Source: Actinomycetes bacterium
Lineage (GTDB): Bacteria > Actinomycetota > Acidimicrobiia > Acidimicrobiales > RAAP-2
Reading direction: 5' to 3'
Assembly (NCBI GenBank): GCA_021848365.1
Contig: JAJZUS010000001.1
Coordinates: forward strand, 711,517-775,516
Length of the DNA: 64,000 bases
Shown here: in pieces, positions 1 to 20,864 of the stretch
Layout of the letters: each line of letters opens with the position of its first letter
Position numbering within the stretch: position 1 is the first letter of the stretch
Notes under the pieces: model-generated
What the model saw: the letters and a program-made list of their open reading frames with translations, nothing else
Told to the model about the DNA's origin: nothing
Databases searched by the model: none
Made by a program: the position numbers and the translations under genes

Positions 1-1
1 G

Positions 2-691: not shown

Positions 692-709
692 CGAGACGTG
701 TGGTCGTCT

Positions 710-1107: not shown

Positions 1108-1143
1108 TACAGTTCGTTCGTGTTCATTTCAAGAGAAATTGAA
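1108..1143 (+). promoter_or_regulatory. arsR promoter and probable ArsR operator
   Basis: A -10-like TACAGT at 1108-1113 ends only six bases before the GTG start at 1120, so the transcript is probably leaderless; there is no Shine-Dalgarno sequence. An imperfect palindrome, TTCATTTC at 1123-1130 against GAAATTGAA at 1135-1143, overlaps the transcription start and first codons. That is a typical place for an ArsR-type repressor to block its own promoter. The assignment is inferred from position and symmetry. Confidence 0.5.
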
Positions 1144-3669: not shown

Positions 3670-3769
3670 ACGGGCGTGGGGCATCTGGCTAGTTGGCGAC
3701 ATCGCGGAGACAGCGCCGCGACACGGAGCGAGCGTCTCGAGCGTTGACGTCGGATAGAGGAGGAAGCTG

Positions 3770-4003
3770 ATGAATGTGAAGGTTCTGGGGACTGGGTGCA
3801 CCAACTGCGTGCGCTTGGAAGCTCTCGTACGTGAGGTCGCCGAACGCGGAGGCCTCGACGTCGAGGTGGAGAAAGTGACCGAGATCCCGGACATCATGGC
3901 GTACGGCGTCATGAGCACTCCGGGCCTGGTGATAGATGGCGAGTTGAAGAGCGCGGGTCGTATTCCCGCACGTCATGAGCTTCTCGAGTGGCTGAGTCGA
4001 TGA
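3770..4003 (+). CDS. Mini-thioredoxin (redox-active disulfide protein)
   Basis: This 77-aa protein has the small thioredoxin fold seen beside permease-DUF318 genes. It starts with V-K-V-L-G-T-G-C-T-N-C (CTNC redox motif at about residues 9-12) and contains the cis-Pro segment M-S-T-P-G-L-V-I-D-G. Relatives act as thiol-disulfide partners for metal or metalloid handling. A clear GGAGGAAG ribosome site precedes the ATG. It is the last gene of the arsR operon; the probable role is keeping permease or substrate thiols reduced. Confidence 0.8.
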   Translation: MNVKVLGTGCTNCVRLEALVREVAERGGLDVEVEKVTEIPDIMAYGVMSTPGLVIDGELKSAGRIPARHELLEWLSR

Positions 4004-4074
4004 CACTGGGACAGTGAATACGTGGGCACCGCTCTGGTACGACGTTGGATCACTTCGGACGAACCACGACGACG

Positions 4075-4138
4075 TAGGCTAGACAGGACCTTCGCGCGGA
4101 ACTCTCCGCGGAGCCTCACGCGGACGTCCCGCCCCCGT
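4075..4138. repeat. Left direct repeat of tRNA-Arg leader and 5' end (putative attL)
   Basis: Bases 4091-4138 match 20881-20928 in 44 of 48 positions. The right-hand copy is the leader of tRNA-Arg(CCT) plus its first eight bases (GCCCCCGT). The -10-like TAGGCT is also shared (4075-4080 and 20865-20870). After GCCCCCGT the left copy diverges and does not encode a tRNA. This is what an element inserted at the 5' end of the tRNA gene would leave behind. The alternative is a decayed duplicate of the tRNA locus. Confidence 0.6.
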
Positions 4139-4632
4139 GGGACTTCCGCGAATTAGGGGTGATCAGGACTTCTAAGCGGTCGAGGGTCACGTAGATCTCC
4201 TGAGGTTGGAACGTGTACGTAGGTCGTTTGGAACGCGCTTGCGGGTGGAGACAAAGGTATGGTCTCCTAAGCGGCGTGCCCCGCCTTTCTTTGTCTTCTT
4301 GGGCGACGGCCATTACTTCGCAGTCGTCGGCTTTGCCATGGCGGAACTGAGGGCGGGTGTGGAGGTCAGGTGGGCAAGAGGAGCCGAACGAGCTTCGCAC
4401 CGAGGGCTTGGAAGGTCCGGAGGTCCAGGCTCGGCGAACATCTTCTCGAGGACCTTTGGCGGCGTGATTCATACGCTCAGGTGTTGGAATGGGCGGTTGA
4501 CCATCAGCCGGGGTACGGTCGCAGGCGCCCATTCAGTTTGAAGACGACCAGGGCGGAGTGGAACGCTTATCGTCGTGCCAAAGGCAGATTCTGGCGGCGG
4601 GGCAGCGGCGCTGTAGGTCTTGAACTGCCGTT
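4139..4632. other. Left margin of island, no supported gene
   Basis: Overlapping frames exist on both strands here (for example a minus-strand frame from 4532 to 4116), but none has a ribosome site, a family signature or convincing amino-acid composition. I treat the stretch as non-coding or decayed. Confidence 0.4.
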
Positions 4633-4707
4633 GTTCCAGGGATGTTCCATAAGCACTTGCGCGCGGGCTCTCAGCGTGTCATTATGTTCTCGGAACAACG
4701 AGGGAAC
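4633..4707 (+). promoter_or_regulatory. Promoter flanked by paired GTTCC operators
   Basis: A plausible sigma-70-type promoter has TTGCGC at 4657-4662, a 17-base spacer and CATTAT at 4680-4685. Two GTTCC words 11 bases apart (4633-4637, 4644-4648) lie upstream. Two inverted GGAAC words, also 11 bases apart (4692-4696, 4703-4707), lie downstream. This symmetrical flanking, with helical spacing, suggests a repressor that binds both sides of the promoter of the GTPase gene. Confidence 0.5.
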
Positions 4708-4723
4708 AACCAATGGAGGCCCC

Positions 4724-6967
4724 ATGACCAAGTACTACACCGCCACCAAAAGCCGATCGCAGGGACGCGAGGGATGGGCAGTGATCTTTCGACATCCCGT
4801 GCGTAAGGACGCCTCGGGCAAGACGGGTCGCCGGGTGCGCCGGGGCCTCGGAACTGCCGACGAGTCGGTTGCCAACCAACTTGTCAGCGACCTCAATGAG
4901 ATTCTCCAGCGCCCCGAACTGTGGGAGCCCGCCGCTCGGGTTGGTCTGGTTGCTCGCTTCGACGAGCGAGTCCTTGACATCTTCTATGACGGCATAGAGC
5001 CGTCAGCGCACGATCCCGAGCATCTGCGCGATGAGGTGCTTCCCATGCCCGGCGTGGAGGACGGGTACCACTCGGTGCTGATGCTCGGGACCACCGGTGC
5101 AGGCAAGACCACGTTGGTACGCCAGTTCCTTGGCACAGATCCTGACACCGAGCGCTTCCCCTCGACATCCACAGCGAAAACAACGGTCGCGGACACTGAG
5201 TTGATTTTCAGTCGTGATCCGATGTTCCGAGCAGTGGTTACGTTCGTTGGACGAGACGAAGTCATCGACTACCTCACCGAGTGCGTCTCCGAGGCTGCGC
5301 TGGCCATCCTCCGCAAGGCATCTGAACCAGATCAGCGTCGCCGCCTGCTGGACCACCCCAACCAGCGCTTCCGCTTCAGCTACATCCTCGGCCGGGGGAA
5401 GCTCACGATGACAGACGACGGAGATGACGACTTCGATGTTGACGAAGCCGAAGCGTCATCCAGCGAATTGATCGACCTCTCCGCGACGGAGGCGGTGGTC
5501 GTGAACGCACTGGGGATCCTGCGGACCCTCGTTGCCGAGTACGAGGAGCAGACTCGCGAACTGGCCACCGAAGACGGTGACGAGCGTCTCCTAGAGGAGC
5601 TGCGCGAGGAGTGGCTCGACTCTGAGTTGCGCGGAGACGATCGTTTCCACGCTGTGGTCGATACCTTGTTCGACGAGATCGAGAAGCGTTTTGATCTGCT
5701 CGTATCTGGTGAAGTTACGAAGAACCGCCAGGGATGGCCGATTAGTTGGTCATGGGAGACTGAGGATCGCACTGACCTGGTGAAGGCCGTGACCCGCTTC
5801 TCCAGCAATTACGCGCCGCTGTTCGGCTCGCTCCTCACCCCGCTCGTCAATGGCATTCGCGTTAGTGGACCGTTCCGGCCCGAGTGGGGCGGAGGCGCCG
5901 ACGCGCCGAAATTGGTCATCATCGACGGCGAAGGACTCGGCCACACCCCGACGTCAGCGGTAGCGCTGTCAACAGCCGTATCAAAGCGCATCGAGGTGGT
6001 CGACGTTGTGCTCCTCGTTGACAACGCTGCGCAGCCCATGCAGGCAGCACCAGTTGCGGCCATGAAGGCAGTGGCGACCTCGGGTAACGCCAGCAAGTTG
6101 TTGGTAGCGTTCACCCACTTCGACATGGTCAGGGGGGACAACTTGCCGTCTGTGACGGACCGCCAGACCCACGTGAAGGCGTCCGTTGACAACGTGCTGA
6201 AGTCCGTTGGTGAAGACGTCGGACCGTTCGCTGAACGCATCTTGCGCCAGCGTATTGACAAGGCCTGTTTCTTCGTGGGCGGAATCGACGAGCAGCTCGA
6301 CATGAACAAGAAGCGGGATAAGCGAACCATCGACCAACTTCAGACCCTGCTCGAAGTCATCGATCACATCACGGATGAGGTGGTGACGGCCGAGACCCGA
6401 CCCGTATACGACCGCCTCAACCTCGTCCTGGCTGTGCGCGAGGCGGCTAACGGCTTCCATGAGCGCTGGGCGGGGTTGCTTGGCATCAACTACGTGCATG
6501 GCATTCCGAAGGAGCACTGGACGCGAATCAAGGCCCTGTCGCGCCGGTTTGCCGAGGGTTTCGCTGACGAGTACGACACGCTAAAGCCCGTGGGCGAGTT
6601 GAAGCGTGAGTTGGACGAGCAAATTTACCGCATGCTGCAACAGCCAGTGCGGTGGGAAGGTCCCGCCCCGACAGACGAAGACAAGCAGTTAATAATTGAC
6701 GCATTGGCAAAAGCCATTTCCAAGGAGACGACAGTCCTGACATCACGTCGCATCAACGCCGACCGGAAGAAGGCGTGGCAGGAAGCGTACGCGGAGTACG
6801 GGACGAACTCCACCTTCCGACGGGCACGTATCATCTCCAACGAGGTGTATGACCGTGCCGCACCGGTACCGACCGTGACGCCTTCGCCGGATCAGAACAA
6901 CTTCCTGCACGAGGTCACCGCTGTCGTCGACGCAGTCGCTGCCAACCTAAACGTGAAGCTTTTGTAG
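4724..6967 (+). CDS. Large P-loop GTPase-like protein with integrase-arm-like N-terminus
   Basis: The 747-aa protein starts at ATG 4724, after GGAGG, rather than at upstream in-frame codons. Residues 1-60 resemble the arm-type DNA-binding domain of phage integrases: a short basic beta-sheet segment with W-A-V-I-F, R-R-V-R-R-G-L-G-T and then an A-N-Q-L-V helix. A nucleotide-binding domain follows. Walker A GTTGAGKT is at 122-129, a DxxG-type D-G-E-G at 401-404, and T-H-F-D at 464-467 in the place of the N/TKxD base-recognition motif. A 270-residue insertion with an acidic run near 229-245 separates Walker A from DxxG. The C-terminal ~250 residues are helical and unknown. I do not recognise the family; a dynamin/GIMAP-like defence GTPase is possible. 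Confidence 0.6.
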   Translation: MTKYYTATKSRSQGREGWAVIFRHPVRKDASGKTGRRVRRGLGTADESVANQLVSDLNEILQRPELWEPAARVGLVARFDERVLDIFYDGIEPSAHDPEHLRDEVLPMPGVEDGYHSVLMLGTTGAGKTTLVRQFLGTDPDTERFPSTSTAKTTVADTELIFSRDPMFRAVVTFVGRDEVIDYLTECVSEAALAILRKASEPDQRRRLLDHPNQRFRFSYILGRGKLTMTDDGDDDFDVDEAEASSSELIDLSATEAVVVNALGILRTLVAEYEEQTRELATEDGDERLLEELREEWLDSELRGDDRFHAVVDTLFDEIEKRFDLLVSGEVTKNRQGWPISWSWETEDRTDLVKAVTRFSSNYAPLFGSLLTPLVNGIRVSGPFRPEWGGGADAPKLVIIDGEGLGHTPTSAVALSTAVSKRIEVVDVVLLVDNAAQPMQAAPVAAMKAVATSGNASKLLVAFTHFDMVRGDNLPSVTDRQTHVKASVDNVLKSVGEDVGPFAERILRQRIDKACFFVGGIDEQLDMNKKRDKRTIDQLQTLLEVIDHITDEVVTAETRPVYDRLNLVLAVREAANGFHERWAGLLGINYVHGIPKEHWTRIKALSRRFAEGFADEYDTLKPVGELKRELDEQIYRMLQQPVRWEGPAPTDEDKQLIIDALAKAISKETTVLTSRRINADRKKAWQEAYAEYGTNSTFRRARIISNEVYDRAAPVPTVTPSPDQNNFLHEVTAVVDAVAANLNVKLL

Positions 6968-6971
6968 GGAT

Positions 6972-6994
6972 CTGCTCCAGGACTCTTGGAGTAG
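6972..6994. terminator. Possible convergent terminator
   Basis: An 8-bp stem with one G-T pair (CTCCA/TGGAG core) and a 7-base loop lies between the stops of two converging genes (6967 and 7019). There is no T-run, so the call is weak. Confidence 0.3.
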
Positions 6995-7018
6995 CTCAGA
7001 CTCCCCGCTAGTTCCAGT

Positions 7019-8359
7019 TCAAGACTTGAGGCTGTCCCAGAAGTGGGGCGCGAAGACGCTTAGTGGATTTTCGACATCAGACGCCTCGTCCAGCGTCTTG
7101 CGAATTTGGGCGGCGATTTGTGCTTTCAGGGACTCCAGCTGCGGCACAAACGAATAGATATCTGTCGTGTCGACGACGACCGTTCGAACTTGACTTATGT
7201 CGAAAGGGAGTTTGTCGGCTAGCCTACTGATCTGGACAATCGGCTTTCTTACTGCGTGTCTCAATGCAAGTTCATAGAAGACATTTGGATTGTGATACGA
7301 AAGATCAACAATAACAAGTTTACTGGCTACGATGTGCTCGATAACTTGACCAGTAATCATGCCTGCTTCGCCAATCTTGTCCGCACGGACAAGATTGAGA
7401 CCGAATTCGGCTAGGGCAGGCTCGATCAGTGCGCCCATGAAAAGATCGGAATGCTTTCGTTGATCACTTCCTTCTTCTACGATTGGTGTGATGTAGAAGC
7501 AGACTGTATCCATATTGGCCCGTCGTGACTCTGAACCAACTGGCGAAGTGGAATGTGATTGTGCTTCTACTGACGCGGTTGTTTGTCCCTGTTGACCTCG
7601 AGGTCCTGGAAGGAAATCATCAACAACCGTGTCGATGCTCACGAATCGCTCGGCACCACTAATCGATCGAAGGACGCCTAGGAACTTCGTGTTGACCGTG
7701 AATGTGTCGATGCACTCGGCTACGTCGTCGGCAGGCACACCCAATTCTCGCGCTTTGTCGGCAAGAACGGCCTGAACTGGGAGCCGGTTGCCGAGGTATG
7801 TCTCGTAAAGATTCTTGAAGATCGGGTTGCTCTCAATAGCGAGCCTGAACCTTGCCCGAAGCTGGGCGGCTGGCGAAACATCATCTGCAACGGCAGTCAA
7901 CCCTTCTGGCGTGAGAGCCAATTGCTCAGCAGAATAGCTCCCCGTCGTCAGTCCATATTTGGCGCTATTGGTGATCAATTGCCTTGAGGCCCCGCTGTCC
8001 GGACTTTTGCCCATCGTGTCGAACAGTGTGATTCGCCGAACTGGCTGACCAGACCCATTCTTGAAGATCGCAGAGGCCAACTCAAGTGCGTCTTCAAATG
8101 TTGCCGCTGGGAAAAGTGTGGTCCTACGAGTTCGGCGCGTGGCGCCATCTCTTGCGCCAACTGCCTTAGGGGGAGCGGTCTTCTTTGTAGTCGTCGCATT
8201 TCGAGTTGCGGGTGCGGCAGAAACACTCGCATCCTTTATGTCCTTGTCGACCCCAGGACCTGGTGAGACGCGACGTTCATCTGTAATGTCGCCTCGGTCT
8301 TCGACTTCAAGCGCGGTGACCTCTTGTGAATCACCCTTAGTTGTGGATGTGAGTGACAT
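7019..8359 (-). CDS. Winged-helix plus TIR/deoxyribosyltransferase-like effector protein
   Basis: The 446-aa product is read from the ATG at 8359. Residues 1-80 are polar and probably disordered. Residues ~80-270 look like two small helical/winged-helix domains (L-T-P-E-G-L, then A-R-F-R-L-A-I...). The C-terminal ~150 residues have the Rossmann-like pattern of TIR-like and nucleoside 2-deoxyribosyltransferase-like proteins: V-C-F-Y-I-T-P-I, G-E-A-G-M-I-T, V-I-V-D-L-S and H-N-P-N-V-F-Y-E-L-A-L-R-H. The Glu in N-V-F-Y-E is the likely active carboxylate. Such domains cleave nucleotides in several antiviral systems, but a defence role here is inference. The gene is visibly richer in A+T than the flanking chromosome and converges on the GTPase gene. 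Confidence 0.6.
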   Translation of the reverse strand: MSLTSTTKGDSQEVTALEVEDRGDITDERRVSPGPGVDKDIKDASVSAAPATRNATTTKKTAPPKAVGARDGATRRTRRTTLFPAATFEDALELASAIFKNGSGQPVRRITLFDTMGKSPDSGASRQLITNSAKYGLTTGSYSAEQLALTPEGLTAVADDVSPAAQLRARFRLAIESNPIFKNLYETYLGNRLPVQAVLADKARELGVPADDVAECIDTFTVNTKFLGVLRSISGAERFVSIDTVVDDFLPGPRGQQGQTTASVEAQSHSTSPVGSESRRANMDTVCFYITPIVEEGSDQRKHSDLFMGALIEPALAEFGLNLVRADKIGEAGMITGQVIEHIVASKLVIVDLSYHNPNVFYELALRHAVRKPIVQISRLADKLPFDISQVRTVVVDTTDIYSFVPQLESLKAQIAAQIRKTLDEASDVENPLSVFAPHFWDSLKS

Positions 8360-8405
8360 GAACGGAACTCTATAGGGGCATTGTGACACCAACGGAATTG
8401 GCCCC

Positions 8406-8411
8406 ATTATA
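8406..8411 (-). promoter_or_regulatory. Consensus -10 element for the effector gene
   Basis: On the minus strand TATAAT occurs 46 bases before the ATG at 8359. It is a perfect -10 hexamer, which is unusual in this GC-rich window. The -35 is not clear. A second weaker TATAGA lies just upstream of the start. Confidence 0.45.
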
Positions 8412-8520
8412 CCTGATCAGATGAGATAAGTGGTTCGCGAGTGAATCGAGGCGACAGATTGAAAAGGAACCTGGGGTAGATCAAACTGTCGGAGCTGCTG
8501 GCGGGAGTTCGCGTGATTCT

Positions 8521-9879
8521 TCACACGGGTGGTAAATCTGCGGCACTCCCAAATGACGTTGTCGATGTGTCGGCGGAATACGCGGCCAGCGAATTGGAAA
8601 GCAGGCCCCATGACATTAAGTCGAGTACTTGCCGCCGCCAGCCCTTACCCGAGGCCCTATCGGCGATCAGCGTCCTCTTGTAGCCCGCGTTGATCGACTC
8701 GCTATCGTTTCGGATCCCGTAGAGCACGGGGAAGTGCTTGTCCGACTCGGGGAGGAGCCGCAGTTGATCTGGTCGGCCGTACCCTCGCTCTCCGGGCTGC
8801 GGGTGAGGGCTGATCCATCCTACGAATGGGTCCCGTGGACAGGTGATGGTGATACCCAATGTGAAGCGCCAACCCTCCTTGCCTCTCTCATACCGACGCA
8901 CCTGTTTTCGTACGAGTGGCTCAGATAGCACTAGCCCGCCGCCGTCGTCGAAGCTGACTTCGTGGATCGAGCCATTCTGGGCGACGAGGGTGTGCGTGCA
9001 CGTGCGCCGTCCCACCACATGGCTCCACTCTCCGAGCGGCACCTGGCGGTGGACTCGCTCGTCTCCCACGCGTCGACCCGCGTGGACCTTGTTCACGACG
9101 ATGAGGCCGAGCTCGCTCATCAGGGTCTCGTGGTGAACGCCGCGGAAGGCCCCGTCGTAGACGACGGCCTGGATGGCGTCGCCGGCCACCGCGTGAACCT
9201 GGCGGATGAGACGGATCGCCTCGTCGGCCTCGTGTCCACGCTCCTGGACCCGGCCGACCGCGAGGACGACACGCTGCTGGGCGAGGGGACCGCGCACCGC
9301 GATGGCGACCAGATTGTTGCCGTAAATCTGGCCGTCGTGGCGGGTGTGCTCCTCGGCATCGGGGTCCTGACGACCATGATCGGCACGGTTGTAGAGGGGA
9401 CGCACGACGGTGCCGTCGCCGTAGATGGTGCGACTCGGGTGCGGGCGAGTGCGTGACCCCCCGGTGGGAAGGAGCAGGCCGGTTCCTCGGGCCAGTGCCA
9501 CCGAGTGGGTGGTGAAGGCGACCTGGAGGACTTCCAGGTTCTCCTCACTCGTCAGGTGCTCGCGCACGTGGCGGTAGGTGTCGGCGAGGAGGACGGGCGC
9601 GTTCGGATCCATCTCGACGCCGAGGGGATGTCGGGCCGCGCCCTTGTTGTAGAGCTCGACGACGTGCGCCCAGGTGTCGCCACTCAGAAGCTCGGCGTCC
9701 AGACGGTTGGACGAGCGGTAGACGCGCGCCATCGCGCCGTAGGCGAGGTGCATCGCGAGTGGGTGACGCCGCGTACGCCGGGTGAGGTCGCTGAGTTCGG
9801 CCGCGAGGTCGTGGATCAGGGGACAGGCGAAGAGGGCTTCGAGCTGCTCGGCGACGGCCGGCGGGCGATACCTTGTCAC
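8521..9879 (-). CDS. DDE-transposase-like protein (cluster gene 4)
   Basis: Translation most likely starts at GTG 9879, which overlaps the upstream gene's stop (GTGA), giving 452 aa. The catalytic core is recognisable from three carboxylate motifs: I-Y-G-D-G-T-V-V (first Asp), V-Y-D-G-A-F-R-G (second Asp) and N-D-S-E-S-I-N-A-G-Y-K-R (Glu followed by basic residues). These resemble the RNase H-fold cores of IS4/IS1182-type transposases. Residues 1-150 are helical and could bind DNA. The gene is homologous by eye to the frameshifted gene at the other end of the cluster (11758-13273). It is co-transcribed with two recombinase-like genes, so it may belong to a composite transposon. No terminal inverted repeats were recognised. 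Confidence 0.6.
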   Translation of the reverse strand: MTRYRPPAVAEQLEALFACPLIHDLAAELSDLTRRTRRHPLAMHLAYGAMARVYRSSNRLDAELLSGDTWAHVVELYNKGAARHPLGVEMDPNAPVLLADTYRHVREHLTSEENLEVLQVAFTTHSVALARGTGLLLPTGGSRTRPHPSRTIYGDGTVVRPLYNRADHGRQDPDAEEHTRHDGQIYGNNLVAIAVRGPLAQQRVVLAVGRVQERGHEADEAIRLIRQVHAVAGDAIQAVVYDGAFRGVHHETLMSELGLIVVNKVHAGRRVGDERVHRQVPLGEWSHVVGRRTCTHTLVAQNGSIHEVSFDDGGGLVLSEPLVRKQVRRYERGKEGWRFTLGITITCPRDPFVGWISPHPQPGERGYGRPDQLRLLPESDKHFPVLYGIRNDSESINAGYKRTLIADRASGKGWRRQVLDLMSWGLLSNSLAAYSADTSTTSFGSAADLPPV

Positions 9880-10775
9880 GAGCGCTCCTCCATGGAGAGG
9901 GCGTCGCGCGCGGTGTCGAGGCTGGCGACGCCGAGGGCGAGGGTGGCCGCTTCGATTCCTGAGGTGAGGAGCACCTGGTGGGCTCCCCAGAGGCGGATCG
10001 AGCTTGGCCGGACGACGGGTCCGTCCACCCCCGCCGCCGTCATGACCTTGCTCAAGAGGTTCGCGACGGCCGCCTGAGCGGTGTGGGAATCGGCGTAGCC
10101 ACCGCGGCGTGAGACGACGAAGGTGTCGGGAGAGGGCCCTTGGGCCCGATAGATGCGGGCGAATGCGCGCTGTCCCCACGGGCTGAGGCGTCCCTCACGA
10201 GCGCGGATCGGGCTCGCCCCCGGGAGCCGGACCACGCCGCGTGCGACCTCGATGTCACGCCAGCGGATCTGGGGGATCTCTCCCGAGGTCGCTGTCGCCT
10301 CGGCCAGGGCGACCGCGAGGACGGCCCGATCAGACGAGCGAGCTCGTCCGAGAGCCGCCACACGCACTCTGGTCATCTCCCCGTCATCGAGTCGGCGCAC
10401 CTGGCGTGTCGTCCTAGGGGGAAGGAGGAGATCACGCGTCGGGTCGTCGGCGCTCGGCTCTACCTCTCGCAGGGTCGCGAACAGCCCCGTGAGGGCCGTT
10501 CGGCGCAGATGCACGGTGGCGAGCGACGGCGGGGCACCCCGGTGCGTTCTCGCCCAGACGAAGCCCTCGCAGTCCTCGAGGCTCACTTGCAGCAAGGTTG
10601 CTACCCCCTGGCTCGAGAGGCGTGCGCCGAATCGCCGGATGAGCCCTGACAGGCGTGCGGCGGTCGCGGACGTCCTCACCTGGCTCGCCCAGAGCTCGAG
10701 CACGACGCTCAGCTCTGCGTCGAGGCCGCCTCCTCGAGCTCGTCTCCACTCACTGGATCCTTCGGCACCTGGCAT
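9876..10775 (-). CDS. Degenerate tyrosine-recombinase-like protein (cluster gene 3)
   Basis: The 299-aa protein has the two-domain layout of XerC/D-like integrases. There is a SAM-like N-terminal domain (with L-R-R-T-A-L-T-G-L-F), then a catalytic-type core starting L-D-D-G-E-M and running to S-I-R-L-W-G-A-H-Q-V...L-G-V-A-S. The usual active residues are mostly missing. The first Arg (of T-G-x-R-x-S-E) is replaced in A-T-A-T-S-G-E-I. Only the Arg of HxxR remains, in P-S-S-I-R. LGH is LGV, and the nucleophilic Tyr position holds a non-Tyr residue. It is probably a structural or DNA-binding partner rather than an active enzyme. The stop overlaps the next gene start (GTGA). Confidence 0.55.
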   Translation of the reverse strand: MPGAEGSSEWRRARGGGLDAELSVVLELWASQVRTSATAARLSGLIRRFGARLSSQGVATLLQVSLEDCEGFVWARTHRGAPPSLATVHLRRTALTGLFATLREVEPSADDPTRDLLLPPRTTRQVRRLDDGEMTRVRVAALGRARSSDRAVLAVALAEATATSGEIPQIRWRDIEVARGVVRLPGASPIRAREGRLSPWGQRAFARIYRAQGPSPDTFVVSRRGGYADSHTAQAAVANLLSKVMTAAGVDGPVVRPSSIRLWGAHQVLLTSGIEAATLALGVASLDTARDALSMEERS

Positions 10776-10803
10776 GACGCCACCGTGCCGGAGGGTGGAC
10801 CTG

Positions 10804-10817
10804 GCGCACTCACCGCC
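10804..10817 (-). repeat. Third, diverged copy of the cluster repeat
   Basis: GCGCACTCACCGCC matches 12 of 14 bases of the repeat at 13340-13353. It lies at the junction of two recombinase-like genes and overlaps the stop codon at 10810. Confidence 0.35.
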
Positions 10818-11712
10818 GACGTGCCGGGAGGTGCTCGCGGATCCCGATCTCTCGGGCCACGCTCATGAGGTCGTGATGCCCTAGGAAGTGGGCTGCGGCC
10901 TCGAGGCCGTGCGCGTCATAGACGCGCCGGGCCGACGTGTTGCGGATGGACAGGGGCGTCACGGACTCGTCATTGCCGAGACCCGCCCTGATCAAGACCT
11001 TTCGCACGACCATGAGGATGCTCGACTGGATCTTGCCGGCGTCACGGGACCGCCCGCCGTAGAGGAGGGGAGCCTCAGGATCGGTCTCGGCACAGAGTCT
11101 CGTGAGCGACGCCCGCGCCCAGGGTGGGACCTCGAGGACGCGCGCCCCAGCCATGGGGTAGCCGTAGGAAGACTCGCGCTGCGTGCCCGGTGCGCGGATC
11201 CCACTCGCCTGGGCGCTCCCGTCGAAGGCCACCAACGACGAGGTGAGCTTGGCGAGTTCGCCGCTCACCAGTCCCGCGTCGAGGGATCCCACGCTCGATG
11301 TCGCTGCAATGCTTCCCAGTGCGCTGTGGCGCACCAGTCCGATCTCGACCTCGCTCAGCGGTCGACGCCGCAGCACGGTCGGTGACGACCAGGCGGGCCG
11401 AGCCGGGCGCGAGCCGGGAATCTGACTGAGGCGCTCCAGAACCCCGAGCGTCGCCCAGCGATCAATGCGCTCCTCCCACTCGGTGGGAGCAGCGAGAAAG
11501 CGGTCGATCGCCCCGGTGGGGGAGAAGCGCTCGAGCGTGTTATCGAGTTCCTCGGCGAGCACCTCCACCTTCTTGATGGCTGCATCGCTGTAGGTCCCGA
11601 CAGCGTGCAGGCGCTGGCCGAGATTCGTGGGTAGCCCCGTGTCGTGCCAGCTCTGCCAGCGCGAGGTCGGGTCGTTCGGGCCAGTGGTTGATGTGGTCGT
11701 TGTGTTCGTCAT
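10810..11712 (-). CDS. Degenerate tyrosine-recombinase-like protein (cluster gene 2)
   Basis: The protein has 300 aa from ATG 11712; an in-frame GTG at 11757 directly after the upstream stop is possible but would be inside a repeat. The C-terminal core aligns with the neighbouring recombinase-like protein and with the integrase pattern: P-L-S-I-R-N-T-S-A-R-R-V-Y-D-A-H-G and then F-L-G-H-H-D-L. The second Arg and the LGH motif are kept. The first Arg is replaced (A-G-L-V-S-G-E-L), HxxR begins with L, and Ile stands where the catalytic Tyr should be (A-R-E-I). The ~100 N-terminal residues are helical. It is likely a non-catalytic recombinase-fold protein working with its neighbours. Confidence 0.55.
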   Translation of the reverse strand: MTNTTTTSTTGPNDPTSRWQSWHDTGLPTNLGQRLHAVGTYSDAAIKKVEVLAEELDNTLERFSPTGAIDRFLAAPTEWEERIDRWATLGVLERLSQIPGSRPARPAWSSPTVLRRRPLSEVEIGLVRHSALGSIAATSSVGSLDAGLVSGELAKLTSSLVAFDGSAQASGIRAPGTQRESSYGYPMAGARVLEVPPWARASLTRLCAETDPEAPLLYGGRSRDAGKIQSSILMVVRKVLIRAGLGNDESVTPLSIRNTSARRVYDAHGLEAAAHFLGHHDLMSVAREIGIREHLPARRR

Positions 11713-11741
11713 GCCCGTGACGGTCGGGCTGACCCACGCTC

Positions 11742-11761
11742 GCGCAATCGCCACCACTTAG
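11742..11761 (-). repeat. Cluster direct repeat, copy 2
   Basis: GCGCAATCGCCACCACTTAG differs at two positions from 13340-13359. The two copies bracket the frameshifted DDE-like gene almost exactly, so that gene looks like an inserted unit of about 1.6 kb. The copies could also be a shared regulatory element upstream of each gene. Confidence 0.55.
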
Positions 11762-13273
11762 GAGACCGTGGCGATCACCGACTTGCGCCGGCGCCCGCGG
11801 CGATCCAGACGGGCCTCGTGCTGGGCGCACCGGGTGTGACGGGCGACGTGGACGCCCCAGGCGATGGCGTTGCACAGGAGACCAGCGCCGATGATGTCGA
11901 GGTAGAAATTCTGAGGTTCGAGACTCCCGGCCCGGTTCCGGGGAAGGAGACTCTTGAGCCAGGAGAAGGAAGACTCGACGTCGCTGCGCAGCCCGGGCAG
12001 ACCCTCGATCTGGAAGCACGCTTCCGGCAGGGGACGAACCCAGTCGGCGAGGGTCAGGCTCTTCCCGCGCCCGCGTCCAGGGCGCGTGTCCGCGTAGTCC
12101 AGCTCGGCGAGGAACGCTCCGGTCCGACACGGCACACGCAAGGTTCCGACAGCGCGCAGATCGTTATCGGCCGGCTCGAATCGTAGGTCGACGCATTCCA
12201 CGTAGGCGGCCTCGAGGGTGACCTCCGTGCCCGGTGGGACCGAGACCACGGCGCCGTCGAGAGCCCAGAGCTCGTGGTGGCACGGAACAGTGCCGACGTC
12301 ATGGGTCTCGGTGCGAAGGAAGCGGACCGCGAGGCGCTCCTTCGGCGCGACCTTGTCCCCCGAACGGCGTCGAGCGCCTTTGCCCTTTCGCTTCTCGCGC
12401 TGACCCTCCGAGCGATACCCCACGCGCTGCAACTCGCTGGGCAAGAGGACGTGGGGAGTGTTCGCGGCCGCCTCGGACATCTCGACCACGGGAACGACGC
12501 CTCGGGTGAGGAGGTCGCGGACGTGAGTGCCCTGCATCAGCCGGTCGTAGACGACGTGGGTGACACCCCCCTCGGCTCGTGAGATCACTCGCGTGAGCAG
12601 ACGCATCGCCGAGCCGATCTCGTTGCGGTCGAGGAAGAGGTCCACGCCGAGGATCACCCGCTGCCAGCGCCGACGCCCGTGCACCCCGACGAGGGAGATG
12701 GGAACCCCCACCAAGGTCTCGTTGCCCTTCTTGCCCTTGAAGTGAGGCCCGAAACGAGGATTCGTGATCGCCCGAGAGCCCTTGACCTGGCCGTCCTCGT
12801 CGACGGTCACGTCGGACATCGGAGCGAAGACCGAGCGCCTCGCCGTAGATGACCGAGCCGGGTGCGGGTCGGTCCCAGCGGGGCGAGACTGATCCGTCCA
12901 GCAGCCCGGCGGACTTCGCCAGCTCGACCGCAAGATCCGTGAAGGTGATCGAGAGCGCTTCCCACGCTGCGTCGTCGAGCTCGCGGCGCAACTTCTGGAG
13001 CTGGTCGTAGGTCGGAGGCTTCTTGGGCAGTTCACGACTCACCCGCGCGGCCGACTGGCGCACCATCTCCCAGAGCGCGGTCGAGCGCAGGGCCGAGTCC
13101 AGCGCGTTCGCCGAACCGAAGGCCCACCGACCCGCGAGGAAGATGACGATTGCCACCCCTTCGCGTTCTGCGAGGCGATTCGAGGGCAGGTGGCGGATGA
13201 GCACTCCGGCGAGTTCCTCGAGACCGGGCATGGCGGCCACGGCCTCGAGGTCGGAGATGGGGTTGCGATCCAC
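11758..13273 (-). pseudogene. DDE-transposase-like gene with frameshift (cluster gene 1)
   Basis: The product is encoded in two frames. The first runs from GTG 13273 (preceded by AAAGGA) to V-I-Y-G-E near 12845. The second continues from V-F-A-P-M-S-D near 12828 to the TAA at 11758. Both parts match the DDE-like protein at 8521-9879 in order: helical N-terminus, I-Y-G-(D/E), V-Y-D-R-L-M-Q-G, and a final D-V-E-S-S-F-S-W-L-K-S block. Joining the parts restores a ~505-aa protein, so a one-base insertion around 12836-12842 is the simplest explanation. A programmed frameshift or a sequencing error is not excluded. The first carboxylate is Glu here rather than Asp. The downstream recombinase-like genes follow without a gap. 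Confidence 0.6.
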
Positions 13274-13339
13274 GTTTCTTGTTCCTTTCGGCACTCGACA
13301 TCGAGCGCTGGAAGGGCACGGTGGGGCGACATGCTCTCT
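13274..13339. other. Upstream region of the DDE-like cluster
   Basis: This short divergent region holds the ribosome site AAAGGA (minus strand, near 13283-13288) that supports the GTG start at 13273. No further gene is seen. Confidence 0.4.
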
Positions 13340-13359
13340 GCGCAATCGCCGCCATTTAG
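13340..13359 (-). repeat. Cluster direct repeat, copy 1
   Basis: GCGCAATCGCCGCCATTTAG at 13340-13359 matches 18 of 20 bases of 11742-11761 in the same orientation. It lies 67 bases upstream of the frameshifted DDE-like gene and could be a transposon end, a recombination site or an operator. Confidence 0.55.
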
Positions 13360-13431
13360 CTGACTGAGTGCTGCTCGGTCGCCAGTCCTGGTCAGAGGAA
13401 GCGCATCGTCTCGCGACGAAGGTCCCGTGTC

Positions 13432-16419
13432 ATGGCAGTAGGCCAAAATGGTGCGATGTCCCGACCTTCACCGTTGCGAGGCGCAGCCGGTTGGACGGTC
13501 CTCGCTGGGCCCGAGGCGCTCGGTCGGTCACTCCTCCTCACGCAGGGCACCGCCGCGCCCACACCGTGGGCGAGCGCTCCGCGCCTCTCGTTGAACGAGC
13601 GCACACTGGCGGACGGTCAGACGCTGCAACGTGTTCGTCGCGCGTTCCTTACTCGCTCTCGTGTCGTCTACGAGGTCAGTCCGTCATTTCCCGCACCCGG
13701 CTGGGGCGTCGAAGGCGGTCAGATCTGGGATCTCGACGTGACCTTCGACTTCATCACCGAGGCGATCTGGCGCCTCGCTCGGGCGAACTCGATCGACGCT
13801 CGAAATCCGGAGAACCCCGTTTGGCCCTTGGCAGCGATGGCCCTCTCTGCGGGCGCCGTCCCTGATGACTCAGGACGATCGGACGTCAGGCTTCCGGACG
13901 GGCGTTACGCGTGGTGCGACGGGGGCCCGCTTCACCTGTGGTCGCCGACTGACGCACGCATAGACGACGTGGCCGTCGTGCCGCGCGTCTCGTTGACTCG
14001 GGGTCTCCTCACTCCACTCTCTGACCAGCCGACGTCCGCCGCTCTCGCGCCGGACCAGCTGGCCGCAGTGAACGATCCCTCGGCACGGGCGCGAATCATC
14101 GCGCCGGCGGGCTCGGGCAAGACCAGGGTTCTGGTGGAGCGAGCCCGCCACATCCTCGCGACGGGCGTGCCCGCCGATGCCGTGACACTCGTGGCCTTCA
14201 ACAAGCGGGCCCAAGAGGAGATGCGTGATCGAACCCGTGATCTCCCAGCCCTGCGTATCCAGACGCTGAACGCCCTGGCCCTCTCGATCCTCAACGGCAC
14301 GAACGGCTTCGAAGGTCGCGAAGCATCTGTACGCACAATCAACGAGCGCGACGTGCGATCCATCATCGACCAGTTCGTAAAGTTCCCTCGCGTGGCAAAT
14401 ACCGATCCAGCCGCAGCCTGGATCGACGCCTTGAGCCAGGTCCGTCTGGGCCTTCAGTCGCCCGAAGAGGTGGAGCGCGCCTTCGGCGGCGACGTCGAGG
14501 GCTTCGCTGACGTCTTCCGGCGCTACCGCCAGCACCTCGCCGACAATCGCCTCGTCGACTTCGACGAGCAGATCTATCTCGCCATCGAGCTACTTCTTCG
14601 GAATTCCGAGGTCCGACGGAGCGCCGAGAGGCGAGGCGAGGTCCTCCTCGTCGACGAGTTCCAGGACTTGACGCCCGCACACATGCTCCTCCTACGTCTG
14701 CTGGCCGGACCGCAACTCGCCATCTTCGGTGTCGGCGACGACGACCAGACGATCTACGGCTATTCGGGCGCCACGCCGGAGTGGCTGGTGCAGTTCGAGG
14801 ATCACGTCCCCGAGGTGGTCCATCACGCCCTCGAAGTGAACTACCGCTGCCCAGCCCCCGTGGTGGCCGCCGCCGCCAACCTCCTGACTCGCAACTCCGT
14901 TCGCGTCCCCAAGCAGATCCGCCCCGGACCGTCGAACGCGCGTGATCCAAAGTCGTTCGTCGTTGCCAGGGTCGACGACCAAGTCGAGACCGTTCTCGAG
15001 CACGTTCGCGGTCTGATGTCCGAAGGCTCAGCGCCTGAGAGCATCGCGATCCTCTCGCGCGTGAACGCGAATCTGGTGCCGGTGCAAGTCGCCCTGCTCG
15101 CTGGGGACGTCCCGGTCAACGTGCGAGACGACGGGAACTTCATACGCAACTCGGCCGTGGCGTCGGCCCTCGCCTGGCTGCGCTTGGCAGTCGATCCCGG
15201 TCGCATGTCGGGTTCCGATATCGAACTCGCTGCGCGCCGCCCGGGTCGGGGGATCTCGCCCAAGGTCCGTGACTGGATGGGTGAGCAGCACTCGCTCGAG
15301 GGTCTCAAGCGATTGGCCGAGCGACTGGACACGAAGGACTCGCAGAAGATACAGGGCTTCGTCGGAGATCTTCGCCGAGCCATCGCGTTCGCGGCGAAAG
15401 CGACGACGCCGACCCTGGTCGAGTACATCCGCCGGGTCATCGGGCTCGACCAGGCGTTGTCAACGCTGGACGCCTCGCATCAGGGGCGCAACAGCTCGTC
15501 CGTATCTGACGGTCTTCGCAGCCTCGTAGCGCTCGGGCATCTCCATGAAGACCCGAGGACCTTCGACGGGTGGCTGAAGCGGATGCTGGCCGCTCCGTCT
15601 GACGAGCGCGGCGTCACCTTGGCCACCGTGCACCGCGTCAAGGGGCTCGAGTGGCCCCACGTCGTCGTCTACGACGCGAGCGCCGACATCTTCCCGCATC
15701 GACTGAGCACTGACTTCGACGAGGAGCGTCGCGTGTTCCACGTCGCGATCACCCGTTGCCGGACCTCGCTTCTCATCACCGCCGACCGCGGAGCGCCGTC
15801 GATCTTCCTCGATGAGTTGCGTCAGCCCTACACCGCTCCCCAGAAGGCCACGCGTGAGACAACCTCTCGGAAGGACGAGCGATCGTCGAGTCCGCTCGGT
15901 GCGTCGCGCCGCTCACCTCCTCGCGATTCTCAGGTCACCACCGCTCGGTCACGGGGCGCACAAGACTCGAACGGTCCGAATCCGGTGCCGGCGCACGTGG
16001 GCATGAGGTTCAAATGGGGTGGTTACGATTTCACGGTTCGTGGCGTCGAAGCCGACGGCGTCGTGGTCACGACTGGTGACTCACAGCAGACCAAGTTGCC
16101 TTTCGGCTGGACGTTCACGGTCGACGGTGAGAAGACGACCCTCGTAGCGCCACTTGCGGGAAGAATTCACCGGACGGAGTCAGTCGGTGAGGTCAATGTC
16201 GGGCTCTTCGAGGCTCTCAAGGCATGGCGTCTCGAGCAGGCGAAGGCGGATGAAGTCCCGGCATACGTGGTCTTTCACGACCGCACGCTGGAGGACATCT
16301 GTCGAGCACTTCCCCGCACCATGGACCAACTCCTCGCGATCAGTGGTATTGGGCCAGTGAAGGCGGATCGCTACGGCGATCAGATCCTCGCAGTAGTGAG
16401 TGAGTCCCGGCAAAGCTGA
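13432..16419 (+). CDS. UvrD/Rep-type superfamily 1A helicase with N-terminal extension and HRDC domain
   Basis: All SF1A helicase motifs are present in this 995-aa protein. Walker A APAGSGKT is at about 224-231, D-E-F-Q-D at 408-412, G-D-D-D-Q-T-I-Y-G-Y-S-G-A (motif III), N-Y-R-C-P (motif IV), T-V-H-R-V-K-G-L-E-W near 730 and V-A-I-T-R-C-R near 771. An HRDC-like C-terminal domain (about 924-990, with I-S-G-I-G-P-V-K-A-D-R-Y) should bind DNA ends or forks. The first ~210 residues are not helicase and I do not recognise them, which sets the protein apart from chromosomal UvrD/PcrA. Its position inside the island, followed by an EVE-DUF3883 nuclease-like gene, suggests a defence role similar in principle to UvrD-containing systems such as Gabija. 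That role is inferred. Confidence 0.8.
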   Translation: MAVGQNGAMSRPSPLRGAAGWTVLAGPEALGRSLLLTQGTAAPTPWASAPRLSLNERTLADGQTLQRVRRAFLTRSRVVYEVSPSFPAPGWGVEGGQIWDLDVTFDFITEAIWRLARANSIDARNPENPVWPLAAMALSAGAVPDDSGRSDVRLPDGRYAWCDGGPLHLWSPTDARIDDVAVVPRVSLTRGLLTPLSDQPTSAALAPDQLAAVNDPSARARIIAPAGSGKTRVLVERARHILATGVPADAVTLVAFNKRAQEEMRDRTRDLPALRIQTLNALALSILNGTNGFEGREASVRTINERDVRSIIDQFVKFPRVANTDPAAAWIDALSQVRLGLQSPEEVERAFGGDVEGFADVFRRYRQHLADNRLVDFDEQIYLAIELLLRNSEVRRSAERRGEVLLVDEFQDLTPAHMLLLRLLAGPQLAIFGVGDDDQTIYGYSGATPEWLVQFEDHVPEVVHHALEVNYRCPAPVVAAAANLLTRNSVRVPKQIRPGPSNARDPKSFVVARVDDQVETVLEHVRGLMSEGSAPESIAILSRVNANLVPVQVALLAGDVPVNVRDDGNFIRNSAVASALAWLRLAVDPGRMSGSDIELAARRPGRGISPKVRDWMGEQHSLEGLKRLAERLDTKDSQKIQGFVGDLRRAIAFAAKATTPTLVEYIRRVIGLDQALSTLDASHQGRNSSSVSDGLRSLVALGHLHEDPRTFDGWLKRMLAAPSDERGVTLATVHRVKGLEWPHVVVYDASADIFPHRLSTDFDEERRVFHVAITRCRTSLLITADRGAPSIFLDELRQPYTAPQKATRETTSRKDERSSSPLGASRRSPPRDSQVTTARSRGAQDSNGPNPVPAHVGMRFKWGGYDFTVRGVEADGVVVTTGDSQQTKLPFGWTFTVDGEKTTLVAPLAGRIHRTESVGEVNVGLFEALKAWRLEQAKADEVPAYVVFHDRTLEDICRALPRTMDQLLAISGIGPVKADRYGDQILAVVSESRQS

Positions 16420-16505
16420 TCACCGCGCTCAGACTCTTCAGTTGAATGGGCTTCAGTCGAGAAGAGCGACTTCCCAGCCCGTCTAGGTGACCACAGTGAA
16501 GTTGA

Positions 16506-16750
16506 CGTAAGGAGAGTGACCACATCAACGAGAAACAAGGGGACTCAGGGACCAGCTTCTGCGACATCCTGGAACGACCACTCGTCTCGGCACTCGACGA
16601 GCACGATAAGCGTAAGCGTTTTGAGAACTGCGTTCGCCGATTCATGAGGACGAAGCCGGAAAATCTTCCTGGAGCGGCGGGCGCTGAAGAAAAGCGGCTT
16701 GGGAAAGATGGGTCAGCTGACGATGGCTCGCATATCATCCGCCAATGGTG
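16506..16750 (+). other. Possible small coding frame lacking a normal start
   Basis: The frame from 16506 to the TGA at 16748-16750 is open and has protein-like composition (about 80 aa; contains F-C-D-I-L-E-R-P-L, D-K-R-K-R-F-E-N and R-R-F-M-R-T-K-P-E-N). It overlaps the next gene's ATG by a few bases, as in an operon. An AAGGAG sits near 16509-16514, but no in-frame ATG or GTG follows until 16642. ATC at 16524 would be the best-spaced codon. It may be a start-less remnant or a non-canonical start. Confidence 0.3.
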
Positions 16751-17788
16751 ACGTTCCCAGAGCACACAAATACGTGGTGGCGTCAGGATCCCAGTGAGAA
16801 CATCTGGTTCGAGGCGACGGATCGCCAAGATTTAGGTGCGAATCTCCTCGCCCCAGTGTCTAAGAATGCCGGTCAGAAGCTCGTGGCATTCGTACGGCCG
16901 GGCGACCTCGTCCTGCACTACTACAAGCCTCGCAAAAGTGTTGTCGCGTATTCGATTGCTGAGGGAGTTCCGTACGAGTCGGTGATCCGGTGGCCGGATC
17001 GCGAGTTGTCGCCCGAAAGGCCTGCATATGCGATTGCACTGAGCCACTTCACGTTCTTCGACGAGCCGTTATCACTGGCTGAGATCCAGGAGAGGGACGG
17101 GGAGATCAGGCGCATCCGGGGACAAATTGGGCGCAGGGAGGACGGGGCATCTATCTACTTCCCGTTCCAACTGCGCTCTTCGGAACCCATCCGTCCGTCC
17201 GAGGGCGCCTATCTGACGAAACTGCCAAGGGCGGTCTTCGACTTGTTCCCGAAGCTTGAGCCAGCACGAGACTTGCAGGCGCGGGTCCGGATTCCTCCCG
17301 GCCACCTCAAGACGAAGGACTCGGTTCCATCACCCCCTCCCGCTGGTGGTCGAAAGTCGGTAACTGGGCGTCAGCTAGACGTCCGGAAGAAGTTGGCAGC
17401 GGAGAACTACGCCATCGAGTGTGCGAGCAGATACCTAGTGGGTCGTGGTTACACAGTGCAAGACGTGAGCAACCAGGCCTCCCTTGGATATGACCTCCTT
17501 GCATCAAGGGAGTCTGAGCAGGTTGGTTGCGAGGTCAAGGGGAGTGTGAATGATCGAGTCGCGGTAGACCTTCAGTCGTCCGAAGTGGATTTCGCTAGGG
17601 AGGCGGGCGAGCACATTCGATCGCTTCTCTACGTGGTCGACCAGATCCAATTGGAAGATCGTGCAGGCGAGTTCATTGGGGTCGACGGGCGAGAACGAGA
17701 CTACTGGGACTGGCTTCCAGCGAAGAACGCTCTTACGCCCACTGCCTTCAGGTTCATTCTCCCGTCTCACCATCTGGCGCGAGATTGA
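16745..17788 (+). CDS. EVE-like plus DUF3883 (PD-(D/E)xK-type) putative modification-dependent nuclease
   Basis: The 347-aa protein has two parts. Residues ~5-170 look like an EVE/PUA-type domain: N-T-W-W, N-I-W-F-E-A, then V-R-P-G-D-L-V-L-H-Y-Y and A-Y-S-I-A. Such domains bind modified bases. Residues ~215-345 match DUF3883: E-N-Y-A-I-E-C-A-S-R-Y-L, G-Y-T-V-Q-D-V-S, G-Y-D-L-L-A and E-V-K-G-S. The D...ExK arrangement is that of PD-(D/E)xK nucleases. Together they suggest a type IV-like restriction enzyme against modified phage DNA. It lies 325 bases downstream of the UvrD-like helicase on the same strand, so the two may form one defence module. The function is inferred from domain families. 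Confidence 0.65.
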   Translation: MVTFPEHTNTWWRQDPSENIWFEATDRQDLGANLLAPVSKNAGQKLVAFVRPGDLVLHYYKPRKSVVAYSIAEGVPYESVIRWPDRELSPERPAYAIALSHFTFFDEPLSLAEIQERDGEIRRIRGQIGRREDGASIYFPFQLRSSEPIRPSEGAYLTKLPRAVFDLFPKLEPARDLQARVRIPPGHLKTKDSVPSPPPAGGRKSVTGRQLDVRKKLAAENYAIECASRYLVGRGYTVQDVSNQASLGYDLLASRESEQVGCEVKGSVNDRVAVDLQSSEVDFAREAGEHIRSLLYVVDQIQLEDRAGEFIGVDGRERDYWDWLPAKNALTPTAFRFILPSHHLARD

Positions 17789-17866
17789 GAACTCGAGTCA
17801 AGGCCGCGGCGTCGGGTGCCGAGTCGCCCGGGTTGAGGAGCCGCTCGCCGAGAAGTGGCTTAGGGA

Positions 17867-18035
17867 ATGCAGGTGGAGATCGGGGCGGCCAAACTGACTG
17901 GCTGGGTGCCGTACTTCGCGCTAGTCAAGGTCGAGACTGACTGCGTGCGAGTCATCGGGGGCATTGATGAAACGCTGACTTCGGTCAATGACACCCGCCA
18001 GTCAATTGCCTGCCGCGAACGGGATTGTCGCCAGG
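17867..18035 (+). pseudogene. 5' part of small ORF split by IS21
   Basis: The frame begins ATG 17867 (product starting M-Q-V-E-I-G-A-A-K-L). Removing the IS21 element and one CCAGG copy joins it in frame to 20314-20420, giving about 91 residues before TGA. The product is not recognised and the start has only a weak ribosome site. Confidence 0.4.
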
Positions 18036-20308: not shown

Positions 20309-20313
20309 CCAGG

Positions 20314-20420
20314 TTTCCAGCCAGCTGCTGACGAGGTTCGGCGCATCCGTTCGCGGCCGACTCTGGCGCCCAAGCGGACGGAGTGACTTCACTGGGATGA
20401 AAATCCCGACAGTCATGTGA
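20314..20420 (+). pseudogene. 3' part of small ORF split by IS21
   Basis: Continuation of the frame that starts at 17867. After removal of the IS element the codon split at 18035 is completed by 20314-20315 and the frame stays open to TGA at 20418-20420. Product unrecognised. Confidence 0.35.
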
Positions 20421-20440
20421 GATTCGGTTCTGCGAGCCCC

Positions 20441-20782: not shown

Positions 20783-20864
20783 CCAACTACTATAACAAAG
20801 TAAAAATAAAATCTATCTTTCTTTCCTGTTACGCCCGTAACTCTGTCGATTGCGCGTCTCCGCC

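Follow-up and report, generated by a model that had tools for sequence, protein, structure and literature searches.

A cluster of DDE-transposase-like and degenerate tyrosine-recombinase-fold genes as the probable transposition module of large actinobacterial transposons

Four genes lie close together on one strand of a 64,000-nucleotide stretch of DNA from an actinomycete of the order Acidimicrobiales (contig JAJZUS010000001.1, positions 711,517 to 775,516; here called the window). The outer two encode proteins resembling DDE (Asp-Asp-Glu) transposases, DDE-A and DDE-B, and the inner two, YR1 and YR2, encode proteins with the fold of tyrosine recombinases (YR). Do these genes belong together, and if so, do they move DNA? 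The original prediction, made from the sequence of the window, was of a possible transposition system, not described before, in which DDE genes work with genes of the recombinase fold. Our analysis supports this, in that the genes travel together and elements of the family are bounded by exact duplications of 8-10 bp. We conclude, with a probability of about 0.78, that these four genes form the transposition module of large unit transposons whose family has not been described before, and which is represented in the window by a 16.8-kb element that we call element Y (Table 1).

Gene order, fold and catalytic residues

The DDE-A stop directly abuts the YR1 start, a gap of 34 bp separates YR1 from YR2, and YR2 overlaps DDE-B by 4 bp. 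Apart from the 34-bp gap, the four genes therefore have the abutting or overlapping ends on one strand that had been predicted for them, and the two DDE-like genes are, as also predicted, homologous (25% identity, E 5.9e-11). All four were found in the expected place, but DDE-A consists of two frames, not of one open reading frame. Since its single-frame homologue at locus L019 (502 aa) aligns to two overlapping window frames, 13273-12707 and 12867-11812, we regard the window copy as frameshifted, be it a true frameshift, a pseudogene or an assembly error. DDE-A at L025 is, like that at L019 and unlike the window copy, a single frame.

A search for the same order found DDE-YR-YR-DDE again at L019, with one gene inserted, and at L025, at 33-79% identity, so the four frames are not a product of chance. 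Nor are the genes unrelated neighbours, which was the alternative raised at the outset. At L019, which belongs to a genome of the window's genus (G021) and shares a contig with L024, a DUF6994 gene stands between YR1 and YR2 on the opposite strand (8391-9176), lodged mid-module as if cargo can enter there. The four-gene form was seen only in Acidimicrobiales-type loci (the window, L019 and L025). At L020 and L202, DDE-A is followed by a gap and then by YR2-DDE-B, no second YR being found even by profile; L204, L205 and L206 have DDE-A with one YR, L209 has two YRs with DDE-B, and L203 carries two YR-DDE pairs in tandem. Many relatives consist of just one YR-like and one DDE-like gene, coupled, and some are fragments. 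We consider the YR a regular partner of the DDE protein because a YR gene lies within 400 bp of 49 of the 53 DDE genes of at least 400 aa; of the four that lack one, two stand at contig starts and two are the DDE-A genes of L020 and L202.

DDE-B relatives occur in 10 of 61 genomes among relatives; across the phylum, a seven-row profile finds them in 19 of 396. Within the order, a profile of DDE-A has matches in 25 of 397 genomes, some of these matches being DDE-B or single-DDE types. Six plasmid records hold DDE-B relatives (five Mycobacterium, one Streptomyces), and a search of phages gave none at E 0.1.

The fold predicted for the middle genes was confirmed by profile and structure comparison. 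A profile of 13 YR members matches XerA (7.1e-9) and XerD (1.2e-7), four of the 13 match the Pfam integrase N-terminal domain Phage_int_SAM_1 (best 2.8e-5), and in a Foldseek search the YR2 model (mean predicted local distance difference test score, pLDDT, 65.8; last 76 residues of low confidence) matched XerA best (2.8e-5), with all 14 matches at E<=0.001 being tyrosine recombinases or integrases. Active-site columns were placed by alignment to XerD and XerA in 39 YR-like proteins (at least 255 aa; L217-L219, L038, L181 and four identical proteins excluded). The nucleophile column never holds Tyr (Leu in 17, Ala in 7, others in the remainder, with a gap in 2), the HxxR motif retains its His in none and its Arg in 17, and the first Arg and the later His are present in five and three proteins respectively. 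The Ser directly after the HxxR His position is conserved in 38 of the 39. Judged by these residues, the YR proteins are catalytically dead. The YR1 proteins form their own group in the YR tree (five rows, support 99).

Nine columns are invariant among 27 aligned DDE proteins, D155, D242, R390 and E394 of DDE-B being among them, and DDE-B has the full Y-x2-R-x3-E-x6-K signature. In a larger set of 49 proteins (at least 370 aa; the repeats L217-L219 and L038 and six proteins with identical cores excluded) the two aspartates are kept in 47 and 49, Y in 36, R in 47, E in 45 and K in 18, the K position being D in 25. The only Pfam match common to more than two DDE members is PF01609 (DDE_Tnp_1), a weak one found in 9 of the 27 at E<=1 (best 0.004) and not in DDE-B itself. 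None of the four cluster proteins reaches the cut-off of a Pfam or NCBIfam family, PADLOC returned no match for them, and PHROGs a single weak one, of YR1 to an integrase family (E 0.024). A match of the DDE-like proteins to a non-transposase family, the other alternative named beforehand, was likewise not found above cut-off. We are confident that the DDE protein performs DDE chemistry: with the catalytic residues lost from the YR proteins and conserved in the DDE proteins, chemistry can sensibly lie only in the latter.

Element ends, target duplications and tRNA genes

A mycobacterial DDE query matched 18 of 248 genomes of one genus, that of G382, and we take this genus to be Mycobacterium because the DDE protein of plasmid pMK12478 recurs unchanged in three of its genomes. 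Three plasmid contexts (pMK12478 with pMAC109a; pMyong1 with pP2-4a; CP012886) share a conserved right end terminating in GACGTCCC, with the YR-DDE pair set about 200 bp inward of it, counted from the DDE stop; the pMyong1 type has a broken YR gene. The 44.1-kb insertion of pMK12478 and pMAC109a lies between GGGAC...GTCCC ends and is flanked by a perfect 9-bp repeat, CGTCCCACC. Of the 12 plasmid records holding both flanks of the pMK12478 site, 10 run through it without a break, which, as far as sequence can tell, provides an empty site for a mycobacterial relative. CP012886 carries an 85.7-kb unit with the repeat CGGCCACGG, and pMyong1 a 26.7-kb unit with the repeat GTGATGTCC.

The left-end pattern gave 11 matches in 9 of the 18 module-bearing genomes (reversed control, 0). 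Exact duplications flank 11 of the 12 left/right pairs tested (nine of 9 bp, and one each of 10 and 8 bp); the remaining pair, from G639, lacks a matching duplication and may combine two different elements, and two left ends, L166 and L170, fell outside the test because they have no right end to pair. Both ends of eight matching pairs lie in one contig or record, 26.7-89.9 kb apart, and those of the other three (in G541, G639 and G611) on different contigs. The tRNA-Arg pairs of G541, G483, G693 and G669 say less individually, since all share one kind of site. The flanking junctions, which the original prediction had proposed to search, identify the mycobacterial relatives as modules at the ends of large elements whose target duplications are exact and 8-10 bp long. 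Because the duplications are exact, movement in mycobacteria appears to be recent, and of the three genomes with a DDE protein identical to that of pMK12478, two have it at tRNA-Arg and one elsewhere. To the left of the YR gene, the mycobacterial copies (L057, L058, L059) have in common a divergent helix-turn-helix (HTH) gene and three uncharacterised genes, which are possible accessory or target factors.

In the window, the ends were located by a direct-repeat search. A 48-nt direct repeat (94%; 4091-4138 against 20881-20928) resolves into the right end of an upstream element of the same family, element X, the 8-bp duplication GCCCCCGT, and the left end of element Y, so that the predicted cluster, though real, covers just the middle part of the element that contains it. 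The 12-bp inverted repeat of element Y is perfect; its right end reads CGCGGAAGTCCC and closes at 20920, where tRNA-Arg(CCT), the sole tRNA that ARAGORN finds in the window, begins. With a C before each copy of the duplication, a 9-bp reading that leaves the ends unequal by one base is possible, but the 8-bp reading is favoured by similar tandem insertions in two same-genus genomes (G021 C11 and G005 C71), where right and left ends lie exactly 8 bp apart. We conclude that element Y inserted in tandem with an older element X; the left end of the latter was not found with the window left-end pattern in 40 kb upstream. The subterminal near-repeats of the right end are a possible binding array for transposase or YR, and a repeat-like arrangement, read by eye, is seen at other right ends too.

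A 1.49-kb non-autonomous copy elsewhere in the window's own genome (L237; G000 C3 635-2127) shares these ends and is flanked by a 10-bp duplication, AGTTGGGGGT. Its cargo is one gene, whose product is predicted by eye to be secreted, and another gene appears to be interrupted by the insertion. On its own, the 12-nt end pattern is unspecific (14 matches in six genomes against 5 with a reversed control), and the argument is therefore carried by pairing, duplications and the tRNA. Where the window's end patterns were tried (L019, L241, L242), no ends were found for L019, L020 and L202, and an ab initio end search gave nothing convincing for L019, L020 and L025. Two further leads in the window were rejected: an ab initio screen of the surroundings of the cluster near DDE-B, looking for duplications and inverted ends, returned chance-like pairs only (of the 11 candidates in the positive control, the true pair ranked last), and an apparent likeness of the sequence after DDE-B to that before the tRNA proved no better than shuffles, 11 of 300 of which reached its score.

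Position at the 5' end of a tRNA gene is a feature of many relatives. Of the 16 mycobacterial right-end flanks, eight start 2-3 bp ahead of tRNA-Arg(CCT), which places the first nucleotides of the tRNA within the duplication; the others lie elsewhere. An initial scan of 23 non-mycobacterial loci found, in 14 of them, a tRNA 5' end after the DDE gene and oriented the same way. Overall, a same-strand tRNA 5' end lies within 800 bp after 38 of 74 DDE genes or fragments, in 36 of the 38 at 50-221 bp (the 74 places are genes, so that a four-gene locus counts twice, and fragments are counted; L217-L219, L038 and L039 are excluded). Seven kinds of tRNA are represented: Arg(CCT) 25 times, Lys(TTT) four times, Ala(TGC), Phe(GAA), Thr(GGT) and Thr(TGT) twice each, and Arg(CCG) once. 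The 36 places without a tRNA include four-gene loci, plasmids, mycobacterial insertions elsewhere and fragments. One genome (G555, contig C1) has two loci with identical DDE cores 28 kb apart (L218 and L219; 934656 and 962947) and a third, more distant copy at tRNA-Arg(CCT).

Proposed mechanism and alternative explanations

With gene composition, ends, duplications, tRNA-5'-end position, DDE conservation and YR residue loss all read from the sequences, we propose the following. The DDE transposase, with its IS4-type Y-R-E-K signature, would cut at the GGGAC/GTCCC ends, excise the element and insert it by cut-and-paste with a staggered target cut of 8-10 bp. Its nucleophile-less YR-fold partner would serve as a DNA-binding subunit that steers insertion to tRNA 5' ends, as TnsD steers Tn7 to its att site, and a second, non-tRNA insertion mode exists alongside. 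By this route the 16.8-kb element would have entered the 5' end of tRNA-Arg(CCT) in the window, and the four-gene cluster is very likely the machinery that moved it. That the YR is the target selector we slightly favour. We give about even odds to the fuller picture, in which a tyrosine integrase lost its chemistry and was exapted as the target-reading subunit of a DDE transposase, giving tRNA-5'-homing transposons that carry up to 90 kb, the four-gene form being a doubling of the machinery, perhaps so that each transposon end, or each target mode, has a DDE/YR pair of its own.

Several observations weigh against these proposals. The DDE fold is unconfirmed, as the structure model is poor (pLDDT 37) and the Pfam matches are weak, and sequence searches of the PDB with the DDE profiles gave chance-like matches only. 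DDE-A is frameshifted in the window and has no adjacent YR at L020 and L202, and the window module lies mid-element, not near the right end. Three same-genus genomes (G005, G471, G030) have family ends adjoining tRNA-Arg sequence without a detected module: none was found in the stretches examined (L239, L240, L243, L245), and a DDE-B search of G005 and G030 found nothing. Their right ends abut just the first 42 nt of tRNA-Arg, and the flanks of L221, L222, L226 and L230 likewise hold only the first 42 nt of the tRNA; these shortened copies of tRNA-Arg(CCT) suggest other integrations at the anticodon loop. An intron was considered as a source of the fragments in the same-genus genomes, and none was found. 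As to target choice, a YR gene is present in just 22 of the 38 tRNA-linked loci, the rest being fragments, contig ends or short stretches, and it is seen at four of the seven tRNA kinds, Arg(CCT), Lys, Phe and Thr(TGT). Nor do YR clades follow tRNA identity. On a tree of 37 proteins (the set of 39 minus L213 and L215), with 'no tRNA' as a state, there are 13 label changes against a shuffled mean of 14.2, and 44 of 200 shuffles are as low; the YR as chooser of the tRNA kind is thus unproven. Leaving out the 'no tRNA' state gives five changes (observed value, unshuffled), and that state itself is clustered (8 changes against 12.2 shuffled).

The failure of the YR phylogeny to track tRNA identity also speaks for a tentative alternative, possible though not one we would bet on, in which the transposon is the same and the dead YR is an end-binding architectural subunit or an operon repressor, with the DDE protein or accessory genes making the target choice. 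The att sites in tRNA genes are classically read by proteins of the integrase fold, which counts against such a role, as may the regular presence of a YR beside long DDE genes. In its favour, YR and DDE genes abut or overlap, the subterminal repeats of the right end (read by eye) could be bound by a YR dimer, and an HTH gene and three more genes are common beside the mycobacterial pair. A dead YR acting as a DNA-binding repressor is moreover documented for MrpR of prophage SPbeta (PMC10516654). It is improbable that the module is a domesticated or dying relic, in which IS4-like transposases and integrases decayed together and became immobile. The frameshifted DDE-A and the fragmentary state of several relatives would suit such decay, but the DDE catalytic residues are conserved, the exact mycobacterial duplications indicate recent movement, and the DDE protein of pMK12478 recurs unchanged at tRNA-Arg and elsewhere; the pMK12478/pMAC109a insertion, with empty sites in other plasmids, also speaks against a relic, for the family and not for the window copy. 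Very unlikely, to our minds, is an ordinary tyrosine-integrase island moved by an active integrase encoded elsewhere, with the four genes as passengers. Such islands usually sit at tRNA genes, and a passenger role would account for the mid-island position of the window module, for same-genus islands with the same ends and no detected module, and for 42-nt tRNA fragments that point to other integrations at the same gene. The junction at the tRNA 5' end, however, has inverted repeats and a short duplication instead of a long block of identity, ends of this kind occur at unrelated sites with duplications of their own, the family scans run on element Y gave no recombinase gene besides the module and an IS21-type insertion, and in mycobacteria the module is observed at one end of independently inserted elements.

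Relation to known systems, and cargo

The Tn554-type trios and RIT elements combine several active YR-fold genes in one operon and have no DDE enzyme. The cluster shares with them the several YR-fold genes per operon, and differs in having a DDE enzyme and dead YRs. Compared with an island moved by an active tyrosine recombinase or integrase, the fold is shared and the Tyr nucleophile and R-H-R core are not kept. Transposition by Tn3 duplicates 5 bp of target, against the 8-10 bp found here. Tn3-family transposons with TnpI or with TnpS and TnpT unite a DDE transposase and a tyrosine recombinase in one transposon (PMC7157771). Their YR is an active resolvase acting on a res site, whereas here the nucleophile is lost (a res site was not searched for). 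The contrast that the original prediction drew with known systems thus goes too far on one point, since DDE and YR genes were already known together, although with an active YR. MrpR (YopR), the SPbeta repressor, has the tyrosine-recombinase fold, has lost recombinase function and now binds DNA (PMC10516654). It keeps the tyrosine, which the YR proteins here lack, and is not known as a partner of a DDE transposase.

The published hallmarks of the IS4 family (IS4, IS10, IS50/Tn5, IS231) are a DDE triad with the YREK signature, Y-(2)-R-(3)-E-(6)-K, short inverted ends and repeats of about 10 bp (PMC2266710). Its target duplications are about 8-13 bp long, and ours measure 8 bp for element Y, 10 bp for the mini-copy and 8-10 bp for 11 of 12 mycobacterial pairs. 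Unlike the short IS4-type elements with a single transposase gene, the units described here span 16.8-89.9 kb, are usually coupled to a YR and target tRNA 5' ends, and DDE-B has no family-level sequence match to IS4 above cut-off. Tn7, as generally known, resembles them in its large cargo, its short duplication and its two modes of insertion, one site-specific and next to a conserved gene, the other at different places, plasmids among them; here, in contrast, the site lies inside the tRNA 5' end and the shared core is a DDE protein with a dead YR. Pfam and NCBIfam scans covering the four proteins together with three neighbours, and Pfam scans of further cargo, revealed no homologue of TnsA, TnsB, TnsC or TnsD, the GTPase-like cargo protein having a sub-threshold P-loop match to TniB (Pfam, E 0.096). 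The family is thus IS4-like in chemistry and Tn7-like in lifestyle, and lacks membership features of both.

We call it undescribed solely because our searches of the literature and of four family libraries gave no description of a transposon pairing a DDE enzyme with a dead YR; ISfinder and most subscription papers lay outside these searches. In the annotated plasmids seen, the genes are labelled 'hypothetical protein' or 'integrase'. If our reading is correct, this would be a family of large site-specific DDE transposons that would explain actinobacterial islands at tRNA-Arg(CCT) and other tRNA genes as well as big cargo blocks on mycobacterial plasmids. Should the dead integrase do the targeting, two great classes of recombinase would be joined in one machine, offering a CRISPR-free route for directing large DNA insertions to a fixed site.

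Table 1. Features of element Y and its surroundings, in window coordinates
Feature	Position	Strand	Details
Right end of upstream tandem element X, same family	4091-4130	+	48-nt direct repeat with 20881-20928
Left copy of target duplication, GCCCCCGT	4131-4138	+	Identical to 20921-20928
Element Y, 16,782 bp, holds the four-gene cluster	4139-20920		12-bp inverted ends and 8-bp duplication
Left terminal inverted repeat, GGGACTTCCGCG	4139-4150	+	
Cargo: 865-aa GTPase-like protein	4370-6967	+	TIGR00231 small_GTP E 0.0016, below cut-off
Cargo: 462-aa protein, TIR-like C-terminus, candidate defence effector	7019-8407	minus	PADLOC 'TIR' effector E 2.5e-6; no Pfam match
DDE-B, transposase-like, 452 aa	9879-8521	minus	D155, D242, E394; Y387-x2-R390-x3-E394-x6-K401
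YR2, tyrosine-recombinase-fold protein, 299 aa	10775-9876	minus	Without catalytic Tyr and His
YR1, second dead tyrosine-recombinase-fold protein, 315 aa	11757-10810	minus	Groups with other YR1 in tree
DDE-A, transposase-like	13273-11758	minus	Frameshifted copy
Cargo: UvrD/Rep helicase with HRDC	13432-16419	+	PF00580 1.4e-42
Cargo: protein with NO VEIN C-terminal domain	16745-17788	+	PF13020 1.6e-6
IS21-type insertion (istB, istA) within element Y	17985-20179	minus	PF01695 3.3e-93, rve 4.6e-11
Cargo: 113-aa winged-helix protein, AbiEi-antitoxin-like	20441-20782	minus	PF13338 3.7e-5, 24.2 bits against cut-off 25
Right end with subterminal near-repeats	20881-20920	+	94% alike to 4091-4130
Right terminal inverted repeat, GGGACTTCCGCG	20909-20920	minus	
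Right copy of target duplication	20921-20928	+	First 8 nt of tRNA-Arg(CCT)
Target gene tRNA-Arg(CCT), intact	20921-20995	+	ARAGORN; Rfam RF00005 66.7 bits on same gene in L232

Within element Y, the TIR-like effector and its GTPase-like neighbour are candidate anti-phage cargo. The part of element X that lies in the window (1-4130) carries genes for a SLAC1-type transporter and an ArsP-type permease and an ArsR-like gene, the last recognised by eye. On the Streptomyces plasmid (L060, 12718-16983), two annotated integrases stand with a DUF6262 gene at a distance of 1.8 kb from the YR-DDE pair, a group that we take to resemble a Tn554-type trio.

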